Notes under the pieces: generated by a model | Database searches by the model: none | Told to the model about the DNA's origin: nothing | What the model saw: only the letters and a program-made list of their open reading frames with translations | Part shown: one piece after another, positions 1,229-30,975 of the stretch | Layout: every line of letters starts with the position of its first letter | Position numbering within the stretch: the stretch's first letter is position 1 | Made by a program: the position numbers and the translations under genes | Source of the DNA: an uncultured Ilumatobacter sp. | GTDB taxonomy: Bacteria > Actinomycetota > Acidimicrobiia > Acidimicrobiales > Ilumatobacteraceae | Assembly (NCBI GenBank): GCA_938049325.1 | Contig: CALICC010000059.1 | Span: forward strand, 1 to 36,074 | Direction: 5' to 3' | Length of the DNA: 36,074 nt

Positions 1229-3586
1229 CTATTCGAACCAGCCGAAGACGTCGACCGACAGATGCGTCGCGGCTTCGGAGAAGTACGACACGGTGCCGCC
1301 CGTACCGGTGGGGACGATGCCGAGTGCGCCTCGGGTCTGATTGGCGCCCGCAGCGTTGACGCTCGACACCATCGGCACGATGCCGCCCGGGAAGCCAGTG
1401 ACGAAGCCGCGGTCGCCCGTACGGATCATGGTGAGGTTCTGAGCAACCGCCGATGCCGACGCCGGGACGCTGATCGGATCAAGCGTGCGGACGTCGCCAG
1501 CGCTGAACGCATCGAACCCGAGGTTCAGACGCGTGTCGACCTCGCGAGCCGGAGCCACGAGGTGGAACAGACCGGCCGTGCCCTGTGCTGCTGAACTGCT
1601 GGTCATGTAACCGGCGACGTCGACGGTCACGTCGCGCACGCGCTCGAGATACAGATCGACCGAACCGTTCGCAACCGATGTGACGACGAGGTTCGCCCGC
1701 ACATCGGTGCCAGGGTTGACGTTGAGGTTCGAAGCGTCCGGTCGCGTTGCACCATTCGGGGTCACCGTGACGAAGCCTGCGCCCGGTCCGGCCGACTGGA
1801 TGCCGGTCACGATCAGCACGACCGCTTCGAGATCTGCGGGCATGTCAAACAGCGGCCCGTCGAGCGTCGCTGTGACCACGTCGCCCGCACCGTCAGTGAC
1901 ACGTTGGAAGTCGTTCAAGTCGCCAGGAGCCGAGCGCGTGTCGACCAATCGGAACGGATCAACGGTTTCGAGGCGACCACGACGCACCGGGTCGGGTGCA
2001 CCGAAGTAGAACCCGGCGACGTCGACGATGATGTCGGTGGTCGCCAAAGCGAAGAGGAGCACGTTGCCGTCGGCATCGACCGGCACGATCGACGCATTGG
2101 CAACCACATCACCGACGTCGGCATTGGCCGTTGCCGTGGCGGGTCGTTGCGTGCGCGGCTGCCACGCCGTGACGAACGCTCCCGCCGCCTGCGGCCGAGC
2201 GAGCGTGATGTTGACGAGCGCCGCTTCGGCGCCCGCCGGTGCCTCGAGATCGACCAGACGCGTGGTGCCGCCACGCAGCGGTGCACTCGGCGTGAGATCG
2301 CGAGTGTCGAATCGCCGCTCGATCGAAGGCAACGGTTCGTAGCGCAGCGGACCCGAGTCGGCGGCGCCCGCCGGCGTGTTGTGCGTGACCTTGTGTACTT
2401 GCCCGTTTTGCTGGACGTACCAGAGTTCGGGTCCGTTCGGTCCCGTCACGAACGTCATGTCGGTCGGCGCGGAGGCGGTCAAGAAGACCTCGGCGTCGGC
2501 CAGGTTGGACTCACCGCGGAACACCCACGTGGTCCCCGTCGCTCCGTCCGACACGAGGTAGCCGCCGTCGTATTGAGCTGGCCAGAACCCGTTGGGGATG
2601 AACGCGCCACCGGTGACGAAACCACCGGATGCCCGGCCGTAGTCGGAGATCGGGTCGACGAGACCTCCCGTGGGACCGGGGCATGGCACGGTCTGACCTT
2701 GCGGGCAACGGCCTTCGCGGATCGGCCAGCCGTAGTTCGCTCCGATCTGGCCTTCGTTGACTTCTTCGAGCGTGTTCTGACCGACGTCGTTGATGAAGAA
2801 TCGGGTCGCACTCGTGTTGGGGTCGAACGCGAAGCGGTACGGGTTGCGCAATCCGTACGAGAAGATCTCGCGACACGTCGTGGTCGGTGTGGACGCGTTG
2901 TTGCCGCGCAGACGGCAGTCGGCGGTTCCCGGTCCACTGAACGGATTGCCCGGTGCGGCGAGACCACTCGATGGGCTCACACGCAGGATCTTGCCGTTCA
3001 GCAACGACAGGTCTTGGCCTGCATCGTTGCTTCCGCCGGATCCCGAGTTGCCACGCGGGTCACGCCCGGCGTCGCCCGTCGCGATGTACAGGAAGCCGTC
3101 GTTGCCGATCTCGATGTCACCACCATTGTGGTTGGTGTTGATCGCAGAGATCAGGTCGACGAGCACTCGCTCCGAACCGAGCACGAGACCTGACTCGTTC
3201 ATCACGAAACGGCTCACCCGGTTGTGGCAACCACCCGGCGCCGTGGACGTGATGGTGCGATAGATGTACACGAAGCCGTTCGTGACGAACGCCGGATCGG
3301 CTGTGAACCCGAGGAGGCCCCGTTCGCCACCCCGGCACACGTCCAGGTTGGCCATCGTCGTGACGTCGGATGACCCGTCGCGATCATCGATTCTCAGCAG
3401 CCGACCGTTCTGCTCGAGCACCACGACACGTCCGTCAGGCAGTGCCTCGACGGTGGTCAGCGTGCCCACGTTGGTCACCACGGTGTCAGAGAACCCCGCC
3501 GGTGCGGCCGTTGCGACCGAAGGCCCAGCGCCGACGGTGACGACAGCCGAAGCAGCAACGGCAAGAGCAGAGATCAGAGCGCGCAT
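1229..3586 (-). CDS. Secreted PQQ-dependent sugar dehydrogenase (glucose/sorbosone dehydrogenase family) with C-terminal surface repeats
   Basis: This is probably an extracellular quinoprotein that oxidises aldose sugars. The chosen start gives a signal peptide (MRALISALAVAASAV...ATAAPA); the track ORF begins 14 codons upstream. Residues ~30-410 form the beta-propeller domain, with family motifs GERGLLGFTADP, NHNGGDIEIGNDGFLYIATGD (catalytic His region) and YGLRNPYRFAFDP (catalytic Arg region). Residues ~420-785 hold three copies of a ~115-aa module of the type R.VDTR...G...V.V...A.AV..N.T......G.VT..P...P..S..N...V.V...G.V.L......D..VDV.G.F, common in secreted actinobacterial proteins and probably used for surface attachment. 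The start is supported by a -10-like TACGGT 8 nt upstream, which suggests a leaderless transcript. The enzyme family is confident; the substrate is unknown. Confidence 0.85.
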   Translation of the reverse strand: MRALISALAVAASAVVTVGAGPSVATAAPAGFSDTVVTNVGTLTTVEALPDGRVVVLEQNGRLLRIDDRDGSSDVTTMANLDVCRGGERGLLGFTADPAFVTNGFVYIYRTITSTAPGGCHNRVSRFVMNESGLVLGSERVLVDLISAINTNHNGGDIEIGNDGFLYIATGDAGRDPRGNSGSGGSNDAGQDLSLLNGKILRVSPSSGLAAPGNPFSGPGTADCRLRGNNASTPTTTCREIFSYGLRNPYRFAFDPNTSATRFFINDVGQNTLEEVNEGQIGANYGWPIREGRCPQGQTVPCPGPTGGLVDPISDYGRASGGFVTGGAFIPNGFWPAQYDGGYLVSDGATGTTWVFRGESNLADAEVFLTASAPTDMTFVTGPNGPELWYVQQNGQVHKVTHNTPAGAADSGPLRYEPLPSIERRFDTRDLTPSAPLRGGTTRLVDLEAPAGAEAALVNITLARPQAAGAFVTAWQPRTQRPATATANADVGDVVANASIVPVDADGNVLLFALATTDIIVDVAGFYFGAPDPVRRGRLETVDPFRLVDTRSAPGDLNDFQRVTDGAGDVVTATLDGPLFDMPADLEAVVLIVTGIQSAGPGAGFVTVTPNGATRPDASNLNVNPGTDVRANLVVTSVANGSVDLYLERVRDVTVDVAGYMTSSSAAQGTAGLFHLVAPAREVDTRLNLGFDAFSAGDVRTLDPISVPASASAVAQNLTMIRTGDRGFVTGFPGGIVPMVSSVNAAGANQTRGALGIVPTGTGGTVSYFSEAATHLSVDVFGWFE

Positions 3587-3594
3587 GGCCGAAT

Positions 3595-3600
3595 ACCGTA
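3595..3600 (-). promoter_or_regulatory. -10 box (TACGGT) of the sugar dehydrogenase gene, leaderless type
   Basis: A TANNNT hexamer ends 8 nt before the ATG at 3586. This places the predicted transcription start at or next to the start codon and favours this ATG over the track start at 3628. Confidence 0.5.
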
Positions 3601-3652
3601 CCTTTGCGCTGCACCCCGTCACCTTCACGTGCTGCGACCCACCCTCAGCCCG

Positions 3653-3690
3653 TTCACGCGGCGTTCACAATCGGGCAACAGGTCCGCAAC
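3653..3690 (+). promoter_or_regulatory. Putative GlnR operator upstream of glnII (four AC dinucleotides at 11-bp spacing)
   Basis: TTCAC, TTCAC, GCAAC and GCAAC follow one another with exactly 6 nt between boxes, so AC occurs at 3656, 3667, 3678 and 3689. The known actinobacterial GlnR site is two pairs of half-sites of the form AC-n9-AC, and this array fits it four times. It ends 95 bp before the glnII start, and glnR is encoded two genes downstream. The pattern is seen directly; GlnR binding is inference. Confidence 0.6.
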
Positions 3691-3785
3691 TGGGCCGTGG
3701 CACCCTTTCGGCTCCAACCGGCTCGCCGATAGCGTCGGCGCTGCCCCTATTCCCCGAACACCAACGAGAAGACCGAGGACACACC

Positions 3786-4793
3786 GTGGCTATCAAGGCT
3801 GAGTACATCTGGATCGACGGAGCGGAGCCGTCACCACAGCTCCGTTCGAAGACAAAGATCCTCGACGAGCCCACCGACGACTACCCGGTCTGGGGCTTCG
3901 ACGGATCGTCGACCAACCAGGCAACCGGCGACAAGAGCGACTGCGTGCTCAAGCCGGTCCGGGCCTTCCCCGACCCGATCCGCGGTGGCGACAACGTGCT
4001 CGTCATGTGCGAGGTCATGCTCGTCGACGGCAAGGCGCACCCGACCAACACCCGCGCCGCTGCTGCTCGCACGGCGAAGAAGTACAAGAAGCACGAGTCG
4101 CTGTTCGGTATCGAGCAGGAATACACGATGCTTCGTCCGAACGGAAATCCTCTGGGCTTCCCCGACGACGGGTTCCCCGCACCGCAGGGTCCGTACTACT
4201 GCGGCGTCGGCGAGATCGCCATCACCGGCCGCCAGATCGCCGAAGACCACATGGATGCGTGCCTCGCAGCCGGTATCGGCATCTCCGGCATCAACGCCGA
4301 AGTCATGCCCGGCCAGTGGGAATTTCAAGTCGGTCCGCGCGGCCTGCTCGAAGTCTCCGACGAACTGTGGGTCGCCCGCTGGCTGCTCCACCGCATCGCC
4401 GAGGACTACGGCGTCGTGATCAGCATCGACGCCAAGCCGGTCAAGGGTGACTGGAACGGCGCGGGTGCACACACCAACTTCTCCACCAAGGAGATGCGCG
4501 AAGACGGCGGCATGAAGCACATCGAGGCTGGCTGCAAGGCACTCGGCAAGAAGGCTGCGCTCCACATCGCCAACTACGGCGACGGCGTCGAGGACCGCCT
4601 CACCGGCGCTCACGAAACCCAGCGCTACGACCAGTTCAGCTACGGCGTGTCGGACCGCGGCGCATCGATCCGCATCCCGTGGCAGTGCTCGGTCGACGGA
4701 AAGGGCTACCTCGAAGATCGTCGTCCGAACGGCAACATGGACCCGTACATCGTTGCTCGCCTCATGACCGACACGATCTGTTCAGCAATGTGA
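3786..4793 (+). CDS. glnII: Glutamine synthetase type II (GlnII)
   Basis: This 335-aa enzyme makes glutamine from glutamate, ammonia and ATP in the cytosol. It is the eukaryote-like GSII class: length and motifs match, with WGFDGSSTNQATG in the N-terminal beta-grasp region, GIEQEYTML (metal ligand Glu), GINAEVMPGQWEFQVGP, GAGAHTNFST and SDRGASIRIP. The GTG at 3786 is chosen because GAGG lies 7 nt upstream and the protein begins AIKAEYIWIDG as in homologues; the 174 upstream codons in the track ORF are not coding. It lies upstream of a type I glutamine synthetase and glnR. Expression is probably activated by GlnR when nitrogen is scarce, through the AC array at 3653-3690. GSII is not controlled by adenylylation in known bacteria. 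Confidence 0.95.
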   Translation: MAIKAEYIWIDGAEPSPQLRSKTKILDEPTDDYPVWGFDGSSTNQATGDKSDCVLKPVRAFPDPIRGGDNVLVMCEVMLVDGKAHPTNTRAAAARTAKKYKKHESLFGIEQEYTMLRPNGNPLGFPDDGFPAPQGPYYCGVGEIAITGRQIAEDHMDACLAAGIGISGINAEVMPGQWEFQVGPRGLLEVSDELWVARWLLHRIAEDYGVVISIDAKPVKGDWNGAGAHTNFSTKEMREDGGMKHIEAGCKALGKKAALHIANYGDGVEDRLTGAHETQRYDQFSYGVSDRGASIRIPWQCSVDGKGYLEDRRPNGNMDPYIVARLMTDTICSAM

Positions 4794-4796
4794 CCA

Positions 4797-4829
4797 GTCG
4801 GGTCGGGTTGCTGAGCAATCTGACCCGAC
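4797..4829 (+). terminator. Compound hairpin after glnII
   Basis: GTCGGGTC pairs perfectly with GACCCGAC, and the loop itself holds a short TTGCT/AGCAA hairpin. It begins 3 nt after the glnII stop. No T-run follows directly, so it may be an mRNA 3' stabiliser or part of a leader structure for the next gene. Confidence 0.5.
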
Positions 4830-4862
4830 GCTCGGTTGATTCCTGAGATCAGCAACGTTGCT

Positions 4863-4906
4863 GGCGGGGTGGAGAGGTGACTCTCCGCTCCGCCAGTTCC
4901 CTTTTT
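4863..4906 (+). terminator. Intrinsic-terminator-like hairpin before glnA2
   Basis: A 14-bp stem (GGCGGGGTGGAGAG with CTCTCCGCTCCGCC, two G-U pairs) closes a GTGA loop. A five-T run follows 7 nt later. A perfect 14-nt palindrome CAGCAACGTTGCTG (4850-4863) overlaps its 5' edge by one base. It could end glnII transcripts or attenuate read-through into glnA2. Confidence 0.6.
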
Positions 4907-4931
4907 CACCCCCAGATGGGAGACTTGAACC

Positions 4932-6272
4932 GTGAGTATTGAGCAGCAAAGGGCCTACGTCCTCCGGTCGGTCGAAGAACGCGGCGTACGGCTGATTCGG
5001 CTGTGGTTCACCGACGTGCTCGGCAACCTCAAGAGCATGGCGATTTCGCCTCCCGAGCTCGACAACGCGCTGAGCGACGGCATGACCTTCGACGGTTCAT
5101 CGATCGACGGGTTCAGCCGAGTCCAAGAATCCGATGTCCTCGCGATTCCCGACCCCGACACGTACGAGTTGCTGCCCTGGGGAGACCCGGCAGCACCAGA
5201 GGCGCGCATCTTCTGCGACGTGCACCACCTCGATGGCACACCGTTCGAGGGTGATCCTCGCCAGATTCTGCGCCGTCACGTTCAGGCCGCCCACGAGGCC
5301 GGTCTGACGTTCTACGTCGCACCCGATATCGAGTTCTTCTACTTCGAGCCGCCCATCGACGGCCAAGAGCCCGTGCCGATCGACCAGGGCGGCTTCTTCG
5401 ACCTCACCACGAACGACGTCACCGGCGACCTACGCAAGAACACCATCCGGACGCTCGAAACCATGGGCATCCCCGTCGAGTACAGCTTCCACGAAGACGC
5501 ACCGGGTCAGCAGGAAATCGACTTGCGCCATACCGATGCACTCACCATGGCTGATTCGGTCATGACCTTCCGGCTGGCGGTGCGCGAGCTCGCTGCACGC
5601 AACGGTGTTCACGCCACGTTCATGCCCAAGCCGGTCGAAGGCCTCCAAGGTTCCGGAATGCACCTCCACATGTCACTGTTCAACGGCGACGACAACGCCT
5701 TCTACGACGAGAGTGACGGCTACGACCTCAGCGACACCGCAAAGGCGTTCATGGCGGGCCTGCTGCGTCACGCTCACGAGATCACGGCAGTCACGAACCA
5801 AACGGTCAACAGCTACAAGCGCCTCGTGCCGAACTTCGAAGCGCCGGTGCACATCAGCTGGGCACGCAACAATCGCAGCGGACTCATCCGAGTTCCGATC
5901 GCCAAGGCCAGCAACCCGCTTGCCACCCGCATCGAGTACCGGTCACCCGACCCAGCGTGCAACCCGTACCTCGCCTTCAGTCTCATCCTGGCTGCGGGCA
6001 TGCGCGGCATCAACGAGGGGTATGAACTTCCGGAAGAGGCCGACGCCAACCTCTTCGAAATCGAAGACGACGTGCTCGAGAAACTCGGCATCAACCAGTT
6101 GCCCCATTCTCTGCACGAAGCACTCGAAACCATGGAGAAGTCGACCCTCGTCCGCGAGGCGCTCGGCGAACACGTCTTCGAATGGTTCCTGCGAAACAAG
6201 CAATCCGAATGGCGTGGCTACAAGACTCAGGTCACACCGTTCGAACGCGATCGGTACCTGAAGGCGCTCTGA
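4932..6272 (+). CDS. glnA2: Glutamine synthetase type I, GlnA2-like
   Basis: This 446-aa protein is a type I glutamine synthetase family member; the length equals that of mycobacterial GlnA2. Catalytic-site motifs are present: FDGSSIDGF, PDIEFFYFE, HEDAPGQQEID, GSGMHLHMS (ATP/ammonia region), KRLVPNFEAPVHISW and the IEYRSPDPACNPYLAF segment. The usual NLYDLP adenylylation loop is absent; the equivalent region reads GYELPEEADANLFE, so adenylyl-transferase control is unlikely. Some actinobacterial GlnA paralogues act on polyamines or other amines, so true glutamine synthesis is likely but not proven. GTG start with GGGAG about 9 nt upstream. glnR follows after 6 nt, which suggests co-transcription. 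Confidence 0.92.
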   Translation: MSIEQQRAYVLRSVEERGVRLIRLWFTDVLGNLKSMAISPPELDNALSDGMTFDGSSIDGFSRVQESDVLAIPDPDTYELLPWGDPAAPEARIFCDVHHLDGTPFEGDPRQILRRHVQAAHEAGLTFYVAPDIEFFYFEPPIDGQEPVPIDQGGFFDLTTNDVTGDLRKNTIRTLETMGIPVEYSFHEDAPGQQEIDLRHTDALTMADSVMTFRLAVRELAARNGVHATFMPKPVEGLQGSGMHLHMSLFNGDDNAFYDESDGYDLSDTAKAFMAGLLRHAHEITAVTNQTVNSYKRLVPNFEAPVHISWARNNRSGLIRVPIAKASNPLATRIEYRSPDPACNPYLAFSLILAAGMRGINEGYELPEEADANLFEIEDDVLEKLGINQLPHSLHEALETMEKSTLVREALGEHVFEWFLRNKQSEWRGYKTQVTPFERDRYLKAL

Positions 6273-6278
6273 TCGACC

Positions 6279-6971
6279 ATGGCTGACTCCAACCGCATGC
6301 TCGCCGTCCTCACCCGGTCGATCTCGCCTGAGCTCGCACGCACGCTCGACCTCGCTGGCTACTCGTGGAAGGCGATCGGCTCGATGCTCGAAGCGAGCGA
6401 CGCCGAGTCGGACGACGGTTGGGCTGGCGTCATCATCGACGCTGACGACGACCTCGAGTCGGCGTGGAGCTTTCTGCGCACGCTCCGCAAGCAGTACGCC
6501 GACCCAACACCGACGTTGGTATTGGTGGGCGGATCGCAGCTCCCCGAGCTCGAACACCGTGACGACCTGTTCGACGACTTCTGCCTCGCCCCGTTCCATC
6601 CCGCCGAACTCGAAGCGCGCCTGCGACACCTGCTCCACGCCGAGGTGGAAGTGCAGTCAGCCGATCTCGTCGAGTACGGCGACCTGGCGCTGAACCTCGA
6701 GACCTACCAGGCGTCGATCGGCGGCAAGCCGCTCGACATGACCTACATGGAGTACGAACTCCTCAAGTTCCTCGCGCAGAACCCGGGCAAGGTGTTCACC
6801 CGCGAGATCCTGCTCAGTCGAGTGTGGGGTTATGAGTATTACGGAGGCGCCCGCACCGTCGACGTGCACGTGCGACGACTCCGAGCCAAGCTCGGCGAGC
6901 AGCACGCCGGACTCATCCAAACAGTGCGTTCGGTGGGCTACCGCTTCGGTCAGTCCCGCTGGGACAGCTGA
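6279..6971 (+). CDS. glnR: GlnR-like orphan OmpR-family nitrogen regulator
   Basis: This 230-aa DNA-binding protein has a degenerate receiver domain (residues ~1-120) and an OmpR-type winged helix (~135-228) with EYELLKFLAQNPGKVFTRE, VWGYEYYGGARTVDVHVRRLRAKLG and SVGYRF. The receiver lacks the N-terminal acidic pair (MLAVLTRS instead of VLVVDDE) and the conserved Lys (LAPF instead of VKPF), but keeps an Asp in VIIDADDD. This is the condition described for actinobacterial GlnR, which works without phosphorylation. The winged helix strongly resembles GlnR. The position 6 nt after a glutamine synthetase gene supports a nitrogen role, probably activating glnII and glnA2. MtrA-like or other OmpR regulators are the alternative. 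No partner kinase is adjacent. Confidence 0.85.
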   Translation: MADSNRMLAVLTRSISPELARTLDLAGYSWKAIGSMLEASDAESDDGWAGVIIDADDDLESAWSFLRTLRKQYADPTPTLVLVGGSQLPELEHRDDLFDDFCLAPFHPAELEARLRHLLHAEVEVQSADLVEYGDLALNLETYQASIGGKPLDMTYMEYELLKFLAQNPGKVFTREILLSRVWGYEYYGGARTVDVHVRRLRAKLGEQHAGLIQTVRSVGYRFGQSRWDS

Positions 6972-6982
6972 CCTCGTCGCCG

Positions 6983-7717
6983 TTACTGCAAGAAGTTCGC
7001 CACCGTCGTCGTGACGAGTGACGCGAAGATCACCGCGCCGTCATCACCCGGATGCACGCCGTCACGGCGCAGGACACCGTCAGCGGGCGCGACGTCGCTC
7101 CATCGCCCGACCGTGGCATTGCCACGAGCTCTGATCGCACGCTCGATGGCTTCGTTCACCTCAGCGGTGTCTTGGGGACGCGAGTCGAAGTACGTGTTGA
7201 TCCAGATCAACGGAGCGTTGTCGGGGATCGGATCGAGCACTTCGTTGACGGCCGCTTCCATCTGTTCGACGTCGTTGTACTGACTGATGTCGTTGGTGCC
7301 CAACGCAACGACCCACAGCTGCGTCTCAGGACGCTCAACCTCCTGCGCGATGAACGCCGCGATTTCCGAGCCACTCGTGTTGTCGCGCAGCGACACGGCG
7401 GTCCGCTTGTTGTTCTGCGCCACGATGGTGACGGTGTCGAATCCCAGCAGTTCGAATTGCTCCTCGAGCGCTTCGGTCGATCCCACCGTGATCGAGTCGC
7501 CGATCATCACGATCGATTCGACAGCATCGGGCTCGATCGCGCGAACATCGGCGCCGCCACTGATCTGACCAGGGTTCGACCCGAGCCCGATCGTCGGCAG
7601 GGGCGCCTGAACCTCTTCCGCGGAGCCCGGCTGGCCGGATGCCTGCGATGACGTCGATGAGCACGCGGCGAGGCTGAACAGGCCAAAACAGAACAGCAAG
7701 ATCGAACGTGAACGCAT
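6983..7717 (-). CDS. SGNH/GDSL-hydrolase-fold lipoprotein
   Basis: This 244-aa exported lipoprotein begins with a signal peptide and lipobox LAAC (Cys19). The SGNH hydrolase blocks are visible: MIGDSITVGS (nucleophile Ser) around residue 72, ALGTNDIS (Asn of block III) and DGVHPGDDG (catalytic Asp and His) near the C-terminus. Family members are esterases, lipases or O-acetyl hydrolases acting on cell-envelope carbohydrates or lipids; the substrate here is unknown. A low-complexity linker (~20-55) separates the lipid anchor from the domain. The gene is convergent with glnR, with 11 nt between the stops. It shares the fold with the product of 33206-34114 but little else. Confidence 0.85.
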   Translation of the reverse strand: MRSRSILLFCFGLFSLAACSSTSSQASGQPGSAEEVQAPLPTIGLGSNPGQISGGADVRAIEPDAVESIVMIGDSITVGSTEALEEQFELLGFDTVTIVAQNNKRTAVSLRDNTSGSEIAAFIAQEVERPETQLWVVALGTNDISQYNDVEQMEAAVNEVLDPIPDNAPLIWINTYFDSRPQDTAEVNEAIERAIRARGNATVGRWSDVAPADGVLRRDGVHPGDDGAVIFASLVTTTVANFLQ

Positions 7718-27967: not shown

Positions 27968-28999
27968 TCACATCGGGAGACGAATCTCGACGATGCCGCC
28001 GGGTCCGGCGAGCAGGCCGACCGTGCCGCTGTGAGCGGTGACGATGCCTTTGGCGATCGACAGGCCGAGCCCGGCCGTTCCCGTTCGCGTGTCGCGCGCT
28101 TCATCCGCCCGCGTGAACGGCTCGAAGGCTCGGTCGCGGAATTCAGCGGGGAAACCGGACCCTTCGTCGATGACGCGCAGCACAGCCTCACCACCGACCG
28201 CCTCCACCTGCACCAGGACGACCGAGTCGTTGGGTGCGTGCCGGATCGCATTGTCGAGCAGGTTGCGCACGACGCGCGCCAGTTGCGAGCCGTCGGCGTT
28301 GATCGACACTCGGGACTCGGTTTCGAGAAGCAGCTTGACCCGGCGCTGCTCCGCGAGCGGCCGCACGGTTTCCATCGACTCGTCAGCCAGCTCGGTGAGG
28401 TCGAGCATGGTCCGACTGAGTTCGAGCGTGCCGCTGACGAGCCGCGTGTGGAGCTGCAGGTCGTCGACGAGTGACGAGAGCGCCTTCACCTGTCGTTCCA
28501 TGCCGACGAGGTACTTGTCTGGGTCTGGGGCGACGCCGTCGCGGATGGCCTCGACCGCGGCACGCAGCGCCGCGAGTGGGGTGCGTAGATCGTGGGAGAT
28601 CGACGACAGCATGAGCGATCGTTCCTGCTCGACCGTGTCGAGACGATCGACCATCACGTCGAACATCTCGGCTGCCTCACCCAGTTCGTCATTGCGCTGC
28701 ACGCCGGTGCGCGCCGAGAGGTCACCATCGGCCACCTTCATCGCGGCGGAGCAGATGCGCTTGGCATCGCGGGCGACAGGTCGAGCCAACAGCACCGCCA
28801 CCATGGCCGCAGCGAGGACGGCCGGAACCAGCGCCCACATCACGATCCGCAGGTCGTGATCGTTGATGAACATCGTCTGGGCGGCGATCGCGATCATCAT
28901 GATCGCGACACCGAGAACGGCCAGGGTGGCGCCGAGGAACCGGCGTCCCAGCCGGTTCATCCCGTGCGCCTTGTGCTCGAGCGGGGACAGGTCGGTCAT
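27968..28999 (-). CDS. Two-component sensor histidine kinase
   Basis: This 343-aa membrane kinase has two helices near the N-terminus (LGATLAVLGVAIMMIAIA and IVMWALVPAVLAAAMVAVLLA) separated by only about 12 residues, so there is hardly any extracytoplasmic sensor. A HAMP segment follows (RPVARDAKRI...GDLSARTGVQRNDELGEAAEMFD), then HisKA with SSISHDLRTPLAALRAA (phospho-acceptor His), N-box RNLLDNAIRHAP, G1 VIDEGSGFP and G2 GTAGLGLSIAKG. The signal is probably sensed in or at the membrane. The ATG at 28999 is 7 nt after the response-regulator stop, so the two are co-expressed; the longer track start would overlap the regulator gene. Confidence 0.93.
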   Translation of the reverse strand: MTDLSPLEHKAHGMNRLGRRFLGATLAVLGVAIMMIAIAAQTMFINDHDLRIVMWALVPAVLAAAMVAVLLARPVARDAKRICSAAMKVADGDLSARTGVQRNDELGEAAEMFDVMVDRLDTVEQERSLMLSSISHDLRTPLAALRAAVEAIRDGVAPDPDKYLVGMERQVKALSSLVDDLQLHTRLVSGTLELSRTMLDLTELADESMETVRPLAEQRRVKLLLETESRVSINADGSQLARVVRNLLDNAIRHAPNDSVVLVQVEAVGGEAVLRVIDEGSGFPAEFRDRAFEPFTRADEARDTRTGTAGLGLSIAKGIVTAHSGTVGLLAGPGGIVEIRLPM

Positions 29000-29006
29000 C
29001 GGATAC

Positions 29007-29696
29007 TCACGGTTCGAACCGGTAGCCGACACCCCACACCGTGGTGATCCAACGCGGCTTCTCCGGGTCGACCTCGATCTTGTTGCGGATACGACGGACG
29101 TGCACGGTGACGGTTGCTGGGTCTTGCCACTCGGGCGACGACTGCCAGACCTGCTCGAGCAGCTGCGCTCGCGAGAACACTTGACGCGGGGATGCAGCGA
29201 GGAACGCGAGAACGTCGAACTCTTTGGGAGTCAACTCGATGATGTCGTTCCCCATGCGGACCTCGCGTGCGAGGGGATCGATCTCGAGGCCGTCGAACTC
29301 GATGGGTTGCGGGGAGTTCGTTTCGCGACCGTTCGTGCGACGCAACACGCCGTTGACCCGAGCAGCGAGCTCGCGTGGTGAGAACGGCTTGACGACGTAG
29401 TCGTCAGCACCGAGCTCGAGTCCGGACACACGGTCGGACTCCTCGGCTCGGGCGGTCAACATGATCACCGGAATGTTGCTGGTCTGGCGGACGCGGCGCA
29501 AGATGTCGAGACCGTTGACCCCGGGCAGCATCATGTCGAGCACCACGAGGTCAGGTGGCTGCGCCTCGAGGAGTTCGAGTGCGGTTGTGCCGTCGGCAGC
29601 TTCCGCCACGTCGTGGCCGTCACGGCGCAGGTAGCTGACAACGACCTCTCGTACGGTCGGCTCATCGTCGACGACCAAGACTTTTGTTCCCGTCAT
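29007..29696 (-). CDS. OmpR-family response regulator
   Basis: This 229-aa partner of the downstream kinase has a complete receiver domain (~4-120): VLVVDDEP (acidic pair), LVVLDMMLPG (phospho-Asp), IMLTAR and YVVKPFSPREL. Its OmpR-type winged helix (~135-228) has ELTPKEFDVLAFLAASPRQVFSRAQLL, TVTVHVRRIRNKI and GVGYRFEP. Unlike the GlnR-like protein at 6279 all phosphorylation residues are present. The ATG at 29696 has GAGG about 8 nt upstream; the track ORF start at 30149 runs through the antisense of the neighbour's repeat. It is divergent from a lipoprotein gene 133 bp away, a plausible target. Confidence 0.94.
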   Translation of the reverse strand: MTGTKVLVVDDEPTVREVVVSYLRRDGHDVAEAADGTTALELLEAQPPDLVVLDMMLPGVNGLDILRRVRQTSNIPVIMLTARAEESDRVSGLELGADDYVVKPFSPRELAARVNGVLRRTNGRETNSPQPIEFDGLEIDPLAREVRMGNDIIELTPKEFDVLAFLAASPRQVFSRAQLLEQVWQSSPEWQDPATVTVHVRRIRNKIEVDPEKPRWITTVWGVGYRFEP

Positions 29697-29829
29697 GGGA
29701 GCATCCTCACGTGTCTCGTGAACAAGTTCAACCCGAAGCGATTTCTGTTTCTGGTTTGGCTTCATCGGTTTCGACTTCTGTTCGCAAGATGACTGCCCCC
29801 GTTCTGATCTGCACCTCAGGCTCGTCTCC

Positions 29830-30975
29830 ATGTACAAAAACACTCTCAACTCCCGATTCCTCAACGGCCGCCGTGGCCTCGCTCTCGCCGTTGCCGGCGT
29901 CGTGACGCTCGCGGCATGTGGTTCCGACGACAACGCCACCGAGGACACGCCAATCGACACCGTGGCCGAAGAGGCCGCGCCGGCCGAAGACGATGCCATG
30001 GAAGACGACGCGATGGAAGAAGACGCCATGGAAGACGATGCGATGGAAGACGATGCGATGGAAGAAGACGCCATGGAAGAAGACGCCATGGAGGAAGACG
30101 CCATGGAAGAAGACGCCATGGAAGAAGACGCCATGGAAGAAGACGCCATGGAGGAAGGATCGGTGCCGATCGTGCAACTGCAGTTCGACGGCCTGCCAGT
30201 GCTGGGCGACGCTGCGGTCTACGAAGGCTGGGCAATCGTCGACGGCGCACCCGTCACCACCGGCCGCTTCACCGTCGACGAAGCTGGCACTCAATTCGAC
30301 GACGACGGCAATGAGGTCGACCACTTCGCTGTCGATGCCACCGACGCCACGGCCTTCGTGCTCACCATCGAGCCGACGTTCGACGACGACCCAGCTCCGT
30401 CCGACATTCATCTGCTCGGCGGCGACATCGTCGACGGCACCGCCCGCCTGTCGATCGATCACCCGACGGCGATCACCACCGACTTTGCCGAAGCTGCCGG
30501 ATCGGTCGAGGTCGTCGTGCCGACCGCGCCCGACTCGCCGATCGACACCGCCGGAATCTGGTTCTTCAAAGATGGCGCAGGCAGCCTGACGCTCCCCGAC
30601 CTCCCCGCCGGGTGGGTGTATGAAGGTTGGGCGGTATTCGACGGCATCCCCGTCTCGACCGGCCGCTTCACCGATCCGAACATGGCTGACGACTTCGACG
30701 GCTTCAGCGGTGACGGGTCCGGCCCGGCCACGCCAGGCGAGGACTTCATCCAGAACGCACCCGACGGCCTCGAGTTCCCCCGCTCGGCAGCTGGTGCGAC
30801 GGTCGTCGTGTCGGTCGAACCAATCGACGATGACTCCCCCGCACCGTTCGTGCTCAAGCCGCTCGTGGGCGAACTGCCTGCCGAGGTCGAGCGTCTCGGT
30901 GAGTACCCGTTGAACAACACCGGAACCGACACGTTCCCCACCGGCGTGGCGAACATCGTCCCCGCCGACGCCTGA
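29830..30975 (+). CDS. Lipoprotein with acidic 5-residue repeats and duplicated anti-sigma-factor-like domain
   Basis: This 381-aa protein has a lipoprotein signal ending in LAAC (Cys30), an acidic linker, then eleven copies of a five-residue (D/E)DAME unit (54-108). Two related domains follow (~112-240 and ~245-370), each with a VYEGWA.(V)DG.PV(T/S)TGRFT motif and a later VV.S(V/I)EP..DD.PAP segment. This motif is seen in extracytoplasmic domains of anti-sigma-factor-like proteins (RskA type), but no membrane helix or zinc motif for sigma binding is present, so anti-sigma activity is not implied. It is probably surface-exposed and may be controlled by the divergent two-component system. Confidence 0.8.
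   Translation: MYKNTLNSRFLNGRRGLALAVAGVVTLAACGSDDNATEDTPIDTVAEEAAPAEDDAMEDDAMEEDAMEDDAMEDDAMEEDAMEEDAMEEDAMEEDAMEEDAMEEDAMEEGSVPIVQLQFDGLPVLGDAAVYEGWAIVDGAPVTTGRFTVDEAGTQFDDDGNEVDHFAVDATDATAFVLTIEPTFDDDPAPSDIHLLGGDIVDGTARLSIDHPTAITTDFAEAAGSVEVVVPTAPDSPIDTAGIWFFKDGAGSLTLPDLPAGWVYEGWAVFDGIPVSTGRFTDPNMADDFDGFSGDGSGPATPGEDFIQNAPDGLEFPRSAAGATVVVSVEPIDDDSPAPFVLKPLVGELPAEVERLGEYPLNNTGTDTFPTGVANIVPADA
29989..30153 (+). repeat. 15-bp coding minisatellite, 11 copies
   Basis: Units of the form GA(C/A/G)GA(C/T)GC(G/C)ATGGA(A/G) encode DDAME or EDAME. The last six units are nearly identical, so copy number probably changes by slippage without breaking the frame. It encodes a flexible, highly acidic stalk after the lipid anchor. 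Confidence 0.9.

Follow-up and report, generated by a model that had tools for sequence, protein, structure and literature searches.

The question raised by this locus is how the glutamine synthetase II gene glnII is controlled in an uncultured Ilumatobacter, and whether a short repeat upstream of the gene serves as the operator. In the window, i.e., the whole 36,074-nt stretch of DNA that was analysed, glnII (3786..4793, + strand, GTG start) was identified by a match of 580 bits to the NCBIfam model gln_syn_GlnII, which is above the cut-off. A 199-bp intergenic region separates it from a divergent GSDH-like gene (start 3586, - strand), and the array TTCAC-n6-TTCAC-n6-GCAAC-n6-GCAAC (3653-3690) lies within this region, 95 bp upstream of glnII. 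All four boxes are on the + strand: two of the a-type (box 1, TTCAC, 3653..3657; box 2, TTCAC, 3664..3668, with an invariant A directly after it at 3669) and two of the b-type (box 3, GCAAC, 3675..3679; box 4, GCAAC, 3686..3690). An earlier note on this DNA had placed AC dinucleotides at 3656, 3667, 3678 and 3689, in boxes 6 nt apart, and these positions proved exact when read directly from the sequence. The boxes agree with the description of GlnR operators as 5-nt boxes resembling gTnAc or GaAAc, 6 nt apart and usually four in number (PMC3087709, PMC10704036). The same note had claimed a double a/b half-site layout; four GlnR-type boxes were indeed present, but their order was a-a-b-b and not the alternating a-b-a-b.

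The phasing of the AC dinucleotides taken alone was weak evidence, being barely unusual. By dinucleotide shuffling, a series of four AC in 11-bp phase would be expected 0.014 times in the intergenic region. The box consensus score in this region was 20/20, compared with 17/20 for the best of 5,000 dinucleotide shuffles, although this comparison is optimistic because the consensus was the array itself. The - strand of the 36-kb window contains two further sets of four AC in this phase, and AC runs at other periods were similar in number to those at the 11-bp period. A pattern search of the 3.9-Mb assembly (79% complete) found the full 38-bp pattern at this locus only. The array was accepted as real because it was conserved and not because of its AC phasing.

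Conservation was studied by comparing glnII upstream regions from genomes of the same order and from 80 named contigs. The four-box array was present at nearly all Actinomycetota glnII loci compared, and it was absent from the compared upstream regions of glnII loci labelled Chloroflexi/Dehalococcoidia and of Candidatus Actinomarina. In the 69 distinct arrays, information resided in the four boxes, their near neighbours and one downstream element. In box 1, T2, A4 and C5 were found in 69, 69 and 68 of the 69 arrays, respectively; TTCACA at box 2 was nearly invariant, with A at position 17 in every array, and boxes 3 and 4 were likewise evident from the column counts. Two genomes of the same genus (G003 and G005) have kept boxes 1-3 and the -10 element and lost box 4. 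Among the relatives, the sequence upstream of the array and the neighbouring genes varied, while the array remained constant. A blind model of 54 columns was built solely from glnII promoters outside the class (21 sequences from Streptomyces, Glycomyces, Actinomadura and the like); its top match in the window fell exactly at 3653, with 33.2 bits against 5.0 bits for the best of 4,800 shuffles. With this model, 42 of the 48 glnII promoters of the same order exceeded the best of the 4,800 shuffles, and the two exceptions within the genus were G003 and G005. The earlier note had named conservation upstream of glnII in relatives as a check, and such conservation was found both in the same order and in other actinobacterial classes. 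Judged by these comparisons, the array is not a product of chance and is deeply conserved.

The conserved downstream element, TG-n-[C/G]A-n3-T, played no part in the selection of the arrays. An A and a T at positions 50 and 54 from the start of box 1 were found in 68 of the 69 distinct arrays, whereas at any other offset the pair was found in at most 5; TG at positions 46-47 occurred in 45/69. The element stands 10 nt after box 4 and looks like an extended -10; in the window, this predicted extended -10 (3698..3706, + strand) comprises TG at 3698-3699 and CACCCT at 3701-3706. The transcription start predicted from it would be at about 3713 (+ strand), giving a glnII leader of approximately 73 nt. 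The array would then lie at about -60 to -23 relative to the start, so that boxes 3 and 4 occupy the place of the -35 element. A standard sigma-70 scan of 3500-7100 gave no matches, which fits a promoter that lacks a -35. According to the earlier note, a transcription start upstream of or inside the array would be incompatible with activator binding; the deduced promoter is downstream of the array, in a geometry that would suit activation. Separately, a second -10-like element, GCCGATAGCGT, was seen at 3724-3740 of the window, at a variable spacing of 23-25 nt past the first one within the genus. Relatives carry such an element (TAGGGT, TACGGT or TATCCT) at the same place (L018-L022, L025, L026 and L028), and it is possibly a second, GlnR-independent promoter of glnII.

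The gene at 6279 (6279..6971, + strand) begins 6 nt past the stop codon of glnA, a type I glutamine synthetase gene (4932..6272, + strand; TIGR00653, 466 bits, over the cut-off). Its product contains the Pfam domains GlnR_1st, which is receiver-like, and Trans_reg_C, and its Asp54 aligns with D50 of S. coelicolor GlnR. The nearest solved relatives were the GlnR chains 8hih (1e-40), 8hig and 8hml, with MtrA 2gwr behind (5e-24). In a tree of 50 regulators, the protein grouped with orthologs from Acidimicrobiia next to actinobacterial GlnR, whereas Streptomyces GlnRII candidates and MtrA/PhoP-like proteins fell elsewhere. In approximately 30 genomes of the same order, a GlnR_1st match was located by coordinates within about 5 kb of glnII. 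Its domains, closest solved structures, recognition helix and position in the tree identify the gene described in the earlier note as GlnR-like as a GlnR ortholog, and the glnII-glnA-glnR cluster is conserved. The further statement that it is the only similar regulator in the window was not entirely accurate, since a canonical OmpR-family response regulator without GlnR features is also encoded there (29007-30149, - strand), beside a histidine kinase (27968-29032, - strand). A further ORF (29830-30975, + strand), which encodes an extended stretch of DAMEE-type acidic repeats, overlaps this response regulator ORF on the opposite strand, at its repetitive N-terminal extension; probably one of the two frames is read too long.

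A GlnR array before glnA was also considered and was rejected, as none was seen in the upstream sequences read in the window and in close relatives. Between glnII and glnA, a strong hairpin with a T-run was observed at 4860-4897, and it recurs in L019, L022, L025-L028 and L039. A conserved GAGACT-like -10 was seen roughly 6 nt ahead of the start codon of glnA, in the 4860-4931 region of the window and in relatives. The glnA gene may be transcribed, together with glnR, from its own promoter as a leaderless mRNA.

A second target was found at amtB. The first amtB gene of the genus is preceded by TTCAC-n6-GAAAC-n6-GCGAC-n6-GAAAY and, after the same 10 nt, by TA-n3-T. When the combined pattern of array and -10 was searched in eight genomes with at most 2 mismatches, it was found at 14 places, comprising 8 glnII and 6 amtB sites, and the reversed control pattern gave no matches at this threshold in the same genomes. 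Most matches of a looser scan, which allowed 3 mismatches, were again at glnII and amtB; a few extra places serve as leads only, and the control gave 2 matches in six genomes. The earlier note had suggested searching upstream of amtB and glnA; a related four-box array was recovered at amtB in relatives and none at glnA. In the assembly that contains the window, which is incomplete, no amtB gene was found. One of the leads from the looser scan, in an order-level relative (L277, G037:C1:631706-631759), is an array with one mismatch and a -10 that precedes the gene of an NMT1-like ABC transporter binding protein, which diverges from an amidohydrolase gene; the site is a possible GlnR target through which organic nitrogen might be scavenged. 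The second amtB is preceded, about 42-80 bp away and on the strand opposite to the gene, by an array of three boxes, GAAAC-n6-TTCAC-n6-GAAAC, which is conserved in four genomes of the genus (L159 in G006, L146 in G009, L158 in G003 and L153 in G005).

Comparison of the two targets pointed to a difference in the -10. Its first base was C or G in 62/69 glnII arrays and T in 2/69, in contrast to T in the amtB arrays, a detail that may be new. A tentative reading, somewhat less probable than its opposite, is that glnII promoters across Actinomycetota follow a fixed grammar of four GlnR boxes, 10 nt and an extended -10 in which T at -12 is avoided, strict output at glnII and looser output at amtB being set by promoter tuning alone. 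If so, avoidance of this T would keep RNA polymerase from opening the glnII promoter without GlnR, and the TA-n3-T -10 at equal spacing in amtB promoters of the same genomes would correspond to the looser GlnR output.

Taken together, 3653-3690 is very probably a four-half-site GlnR operator of glnII, a class-II activator site, whose regulator is encoded two genes downstream at 6279. By analogy with Streptomyces, from which GlnR binding, activation and the nitrogen signal are inferred for this promoter, four GlnR DNA-binding domains would bind head to tail to the four 11-bp-spaced boxes under nitrogen limitation. Boxes 3 and 4 would overlie the place of a -35, and GlnR would recruit RNA polymerase to the weak extended -10, thereby activating transcription of glnII from about 3713.

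The closest known counterpart is the GlnR site at the glnII gene of S. venezuelae (Sven_1874), for which the ChIP-chip-derived GlnR sites GTAACACGGGGTTCAC and GCAACCGACGGGAAAT and a change of -291.6-fold in the glnR strain have been reported (PMC3087709). That site, read as GTAAC, TTCAC, GCAAC and GAAAT, likewise has four boxes at 11-bp steps in the a-a-b-b order upstream of glnII, and the -10 spacing in other Streptomyces glnII promoters that were read is identical to that of the window. The window site differs in box 1 (TTCAC) and box 4 (GCAAC), and the window glnR adjoins glnA, whereas Streptomyces glnR lies elsewhere in the genome. Mycobacterial GlnR sites have the form t/gTAAC-n6-Gc/aAAC, which fits the GCAAC boxes, and four GlnR DNA-binding domains have been described on four sites in head-to-tail order, their receivers forming a tetramer (PMC10704036). 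The GlnR boxes of Streptomyces amtB are arranged as a3-b3, a1-b1 and a2-b2 (PMC5826061), i.e., in the a-b-a-b manner, unlike the window array. The Ilumatobacter amtB resembles the Streptomyces gene in having a four-box array. In three genomes (G006, G007 and G008; L148, L149 and L154), an extra TTCAY-n6-GAAAC pair was observed upstream of the first amtB array, resembling the a3-b3 box.

The Streptomyces glnII promoter is also bound by MtrA, PhoP, AfsQ1 and GlnRII, so the sequence cannot show that GlnR acts alone. PhoP, MtrA and AfsQ1 may, by the same analogy, bind the window promoter too. One version of this idea makes the array an integration point, where GlnR activates while its boxes are contested by MtrA-like and PhoP-like regulators. 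The GlnR boxes of Streptomyces glnII and amtB are also bound by MtrA, whose own sites resemble them and which represses nitrogen genes, and at the glnII promoter GlnR has a competitor in PhoP; in addition, boxes 1 and 2 are PHO-like and the own genome encodes several OmpR-family regulators. Boxes 3 and 4 are, however, unlike PHO repeats, and competition of this kind is considered less likely than not; it would add to the explanation by a GlnR operator and would not replace it.

Much less probable is a PHO box, recognised by the phosphate regulator PhoP, as the primary identity of the array. This assignment draws on the 11-nt repeats of Streptomyces PHO boxes, in which GTTCACC is conserved and resembles boxes 1 and 2 (PMC6988585), on the binding of PhoP to the Streptomyces glnII promoter, and on the GTTCAYC repeats in pstS promoters of the genus. 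Both kinds of site have 11-bp direct repeats, an OmpR-family regulator and a nearby -10 without a -35. The pstS upstream regions (L201, L203, L204 and L205) contain GTTCAYC twice and, 21-22 nt further, a third repeat, TTCAC; GCAAC-type boxes are absent, and when these regions are set in the four-box frame, box 3 does not match the repeat. PHO repeats are GTTCACC-type throughout, and pstS of the genus, including that of the own genome, has TTCAC-type repeats only, whereas boxes 3 and 4 are GCAAC in the window and of this type in nearly all arrays. Position 17 is C or T in PHO repeats, not the A of every glnII array, and the pattern matches in the eight genomes were confined to glnII and amtB. 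A PHO box as the main identity was therefore rejected because of the different repeat pattern of the pstS promoters. In the pstS promoter of G005, a TATCTT -10 was observed 10 nt past the last box, a spacing equal to that of glnII.

Equally improbable is a GlnRII-type regulator acting on the operator. GlnRII adjoins glnII in Streptomyces, as the 6279 gene is near glnII here, and it binds the glnII, glnA and amtB promoters (PMC10704036). However, the recognition helix of the 6279 protein (GGARTVDVHVRRLRAKLG) has Arg and Ala, the marks of GlnR, at the two discriminating positions, and not the Ala and Arg of GlnRII (VRRLRAKLG in the window vs VARLRRKLG in Streptomyces GlnRII candidates). These residues, together with the tree, speak against GlnRII, although the fork separating GlnR from GlnRII, the deepest one, is weakly supported (67/44); the GlnR_1st domain is also present. 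That the repeat arose by chance, or that it serves the GSDH-like gene on the other side, as the other AC runs and the gene start at 3586 might suggest, has practically negligible probability given the conservation and the fixed spacing to the -10 on the glnII side, and the latter option was rejected because the upstream neighbours change among relatives while the array persists.

No discussion of GlnR in Acidimicrobiia was found in the open-access literature. The earlier proposal that GlnR control of glnII reaches this class is supported by the conservation, the amtB array, the GlnR ortholog and the promoter geometry. The finding extends the known Streptomyces-type system and is not a new system. 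The spacing rule of box 4, 10 nt and A-n3-T provides a pattern by which draft genomes can be searched for GlnR targets at the cost of very few false matches. The site, the promoter spacing and the regulator have been kept together across deep branches of Actinomycetota, and, as the sequences suggest, both glutamine synthetase II and ammonium uptake would be under GlnR control in Acidimicrobiia as well.
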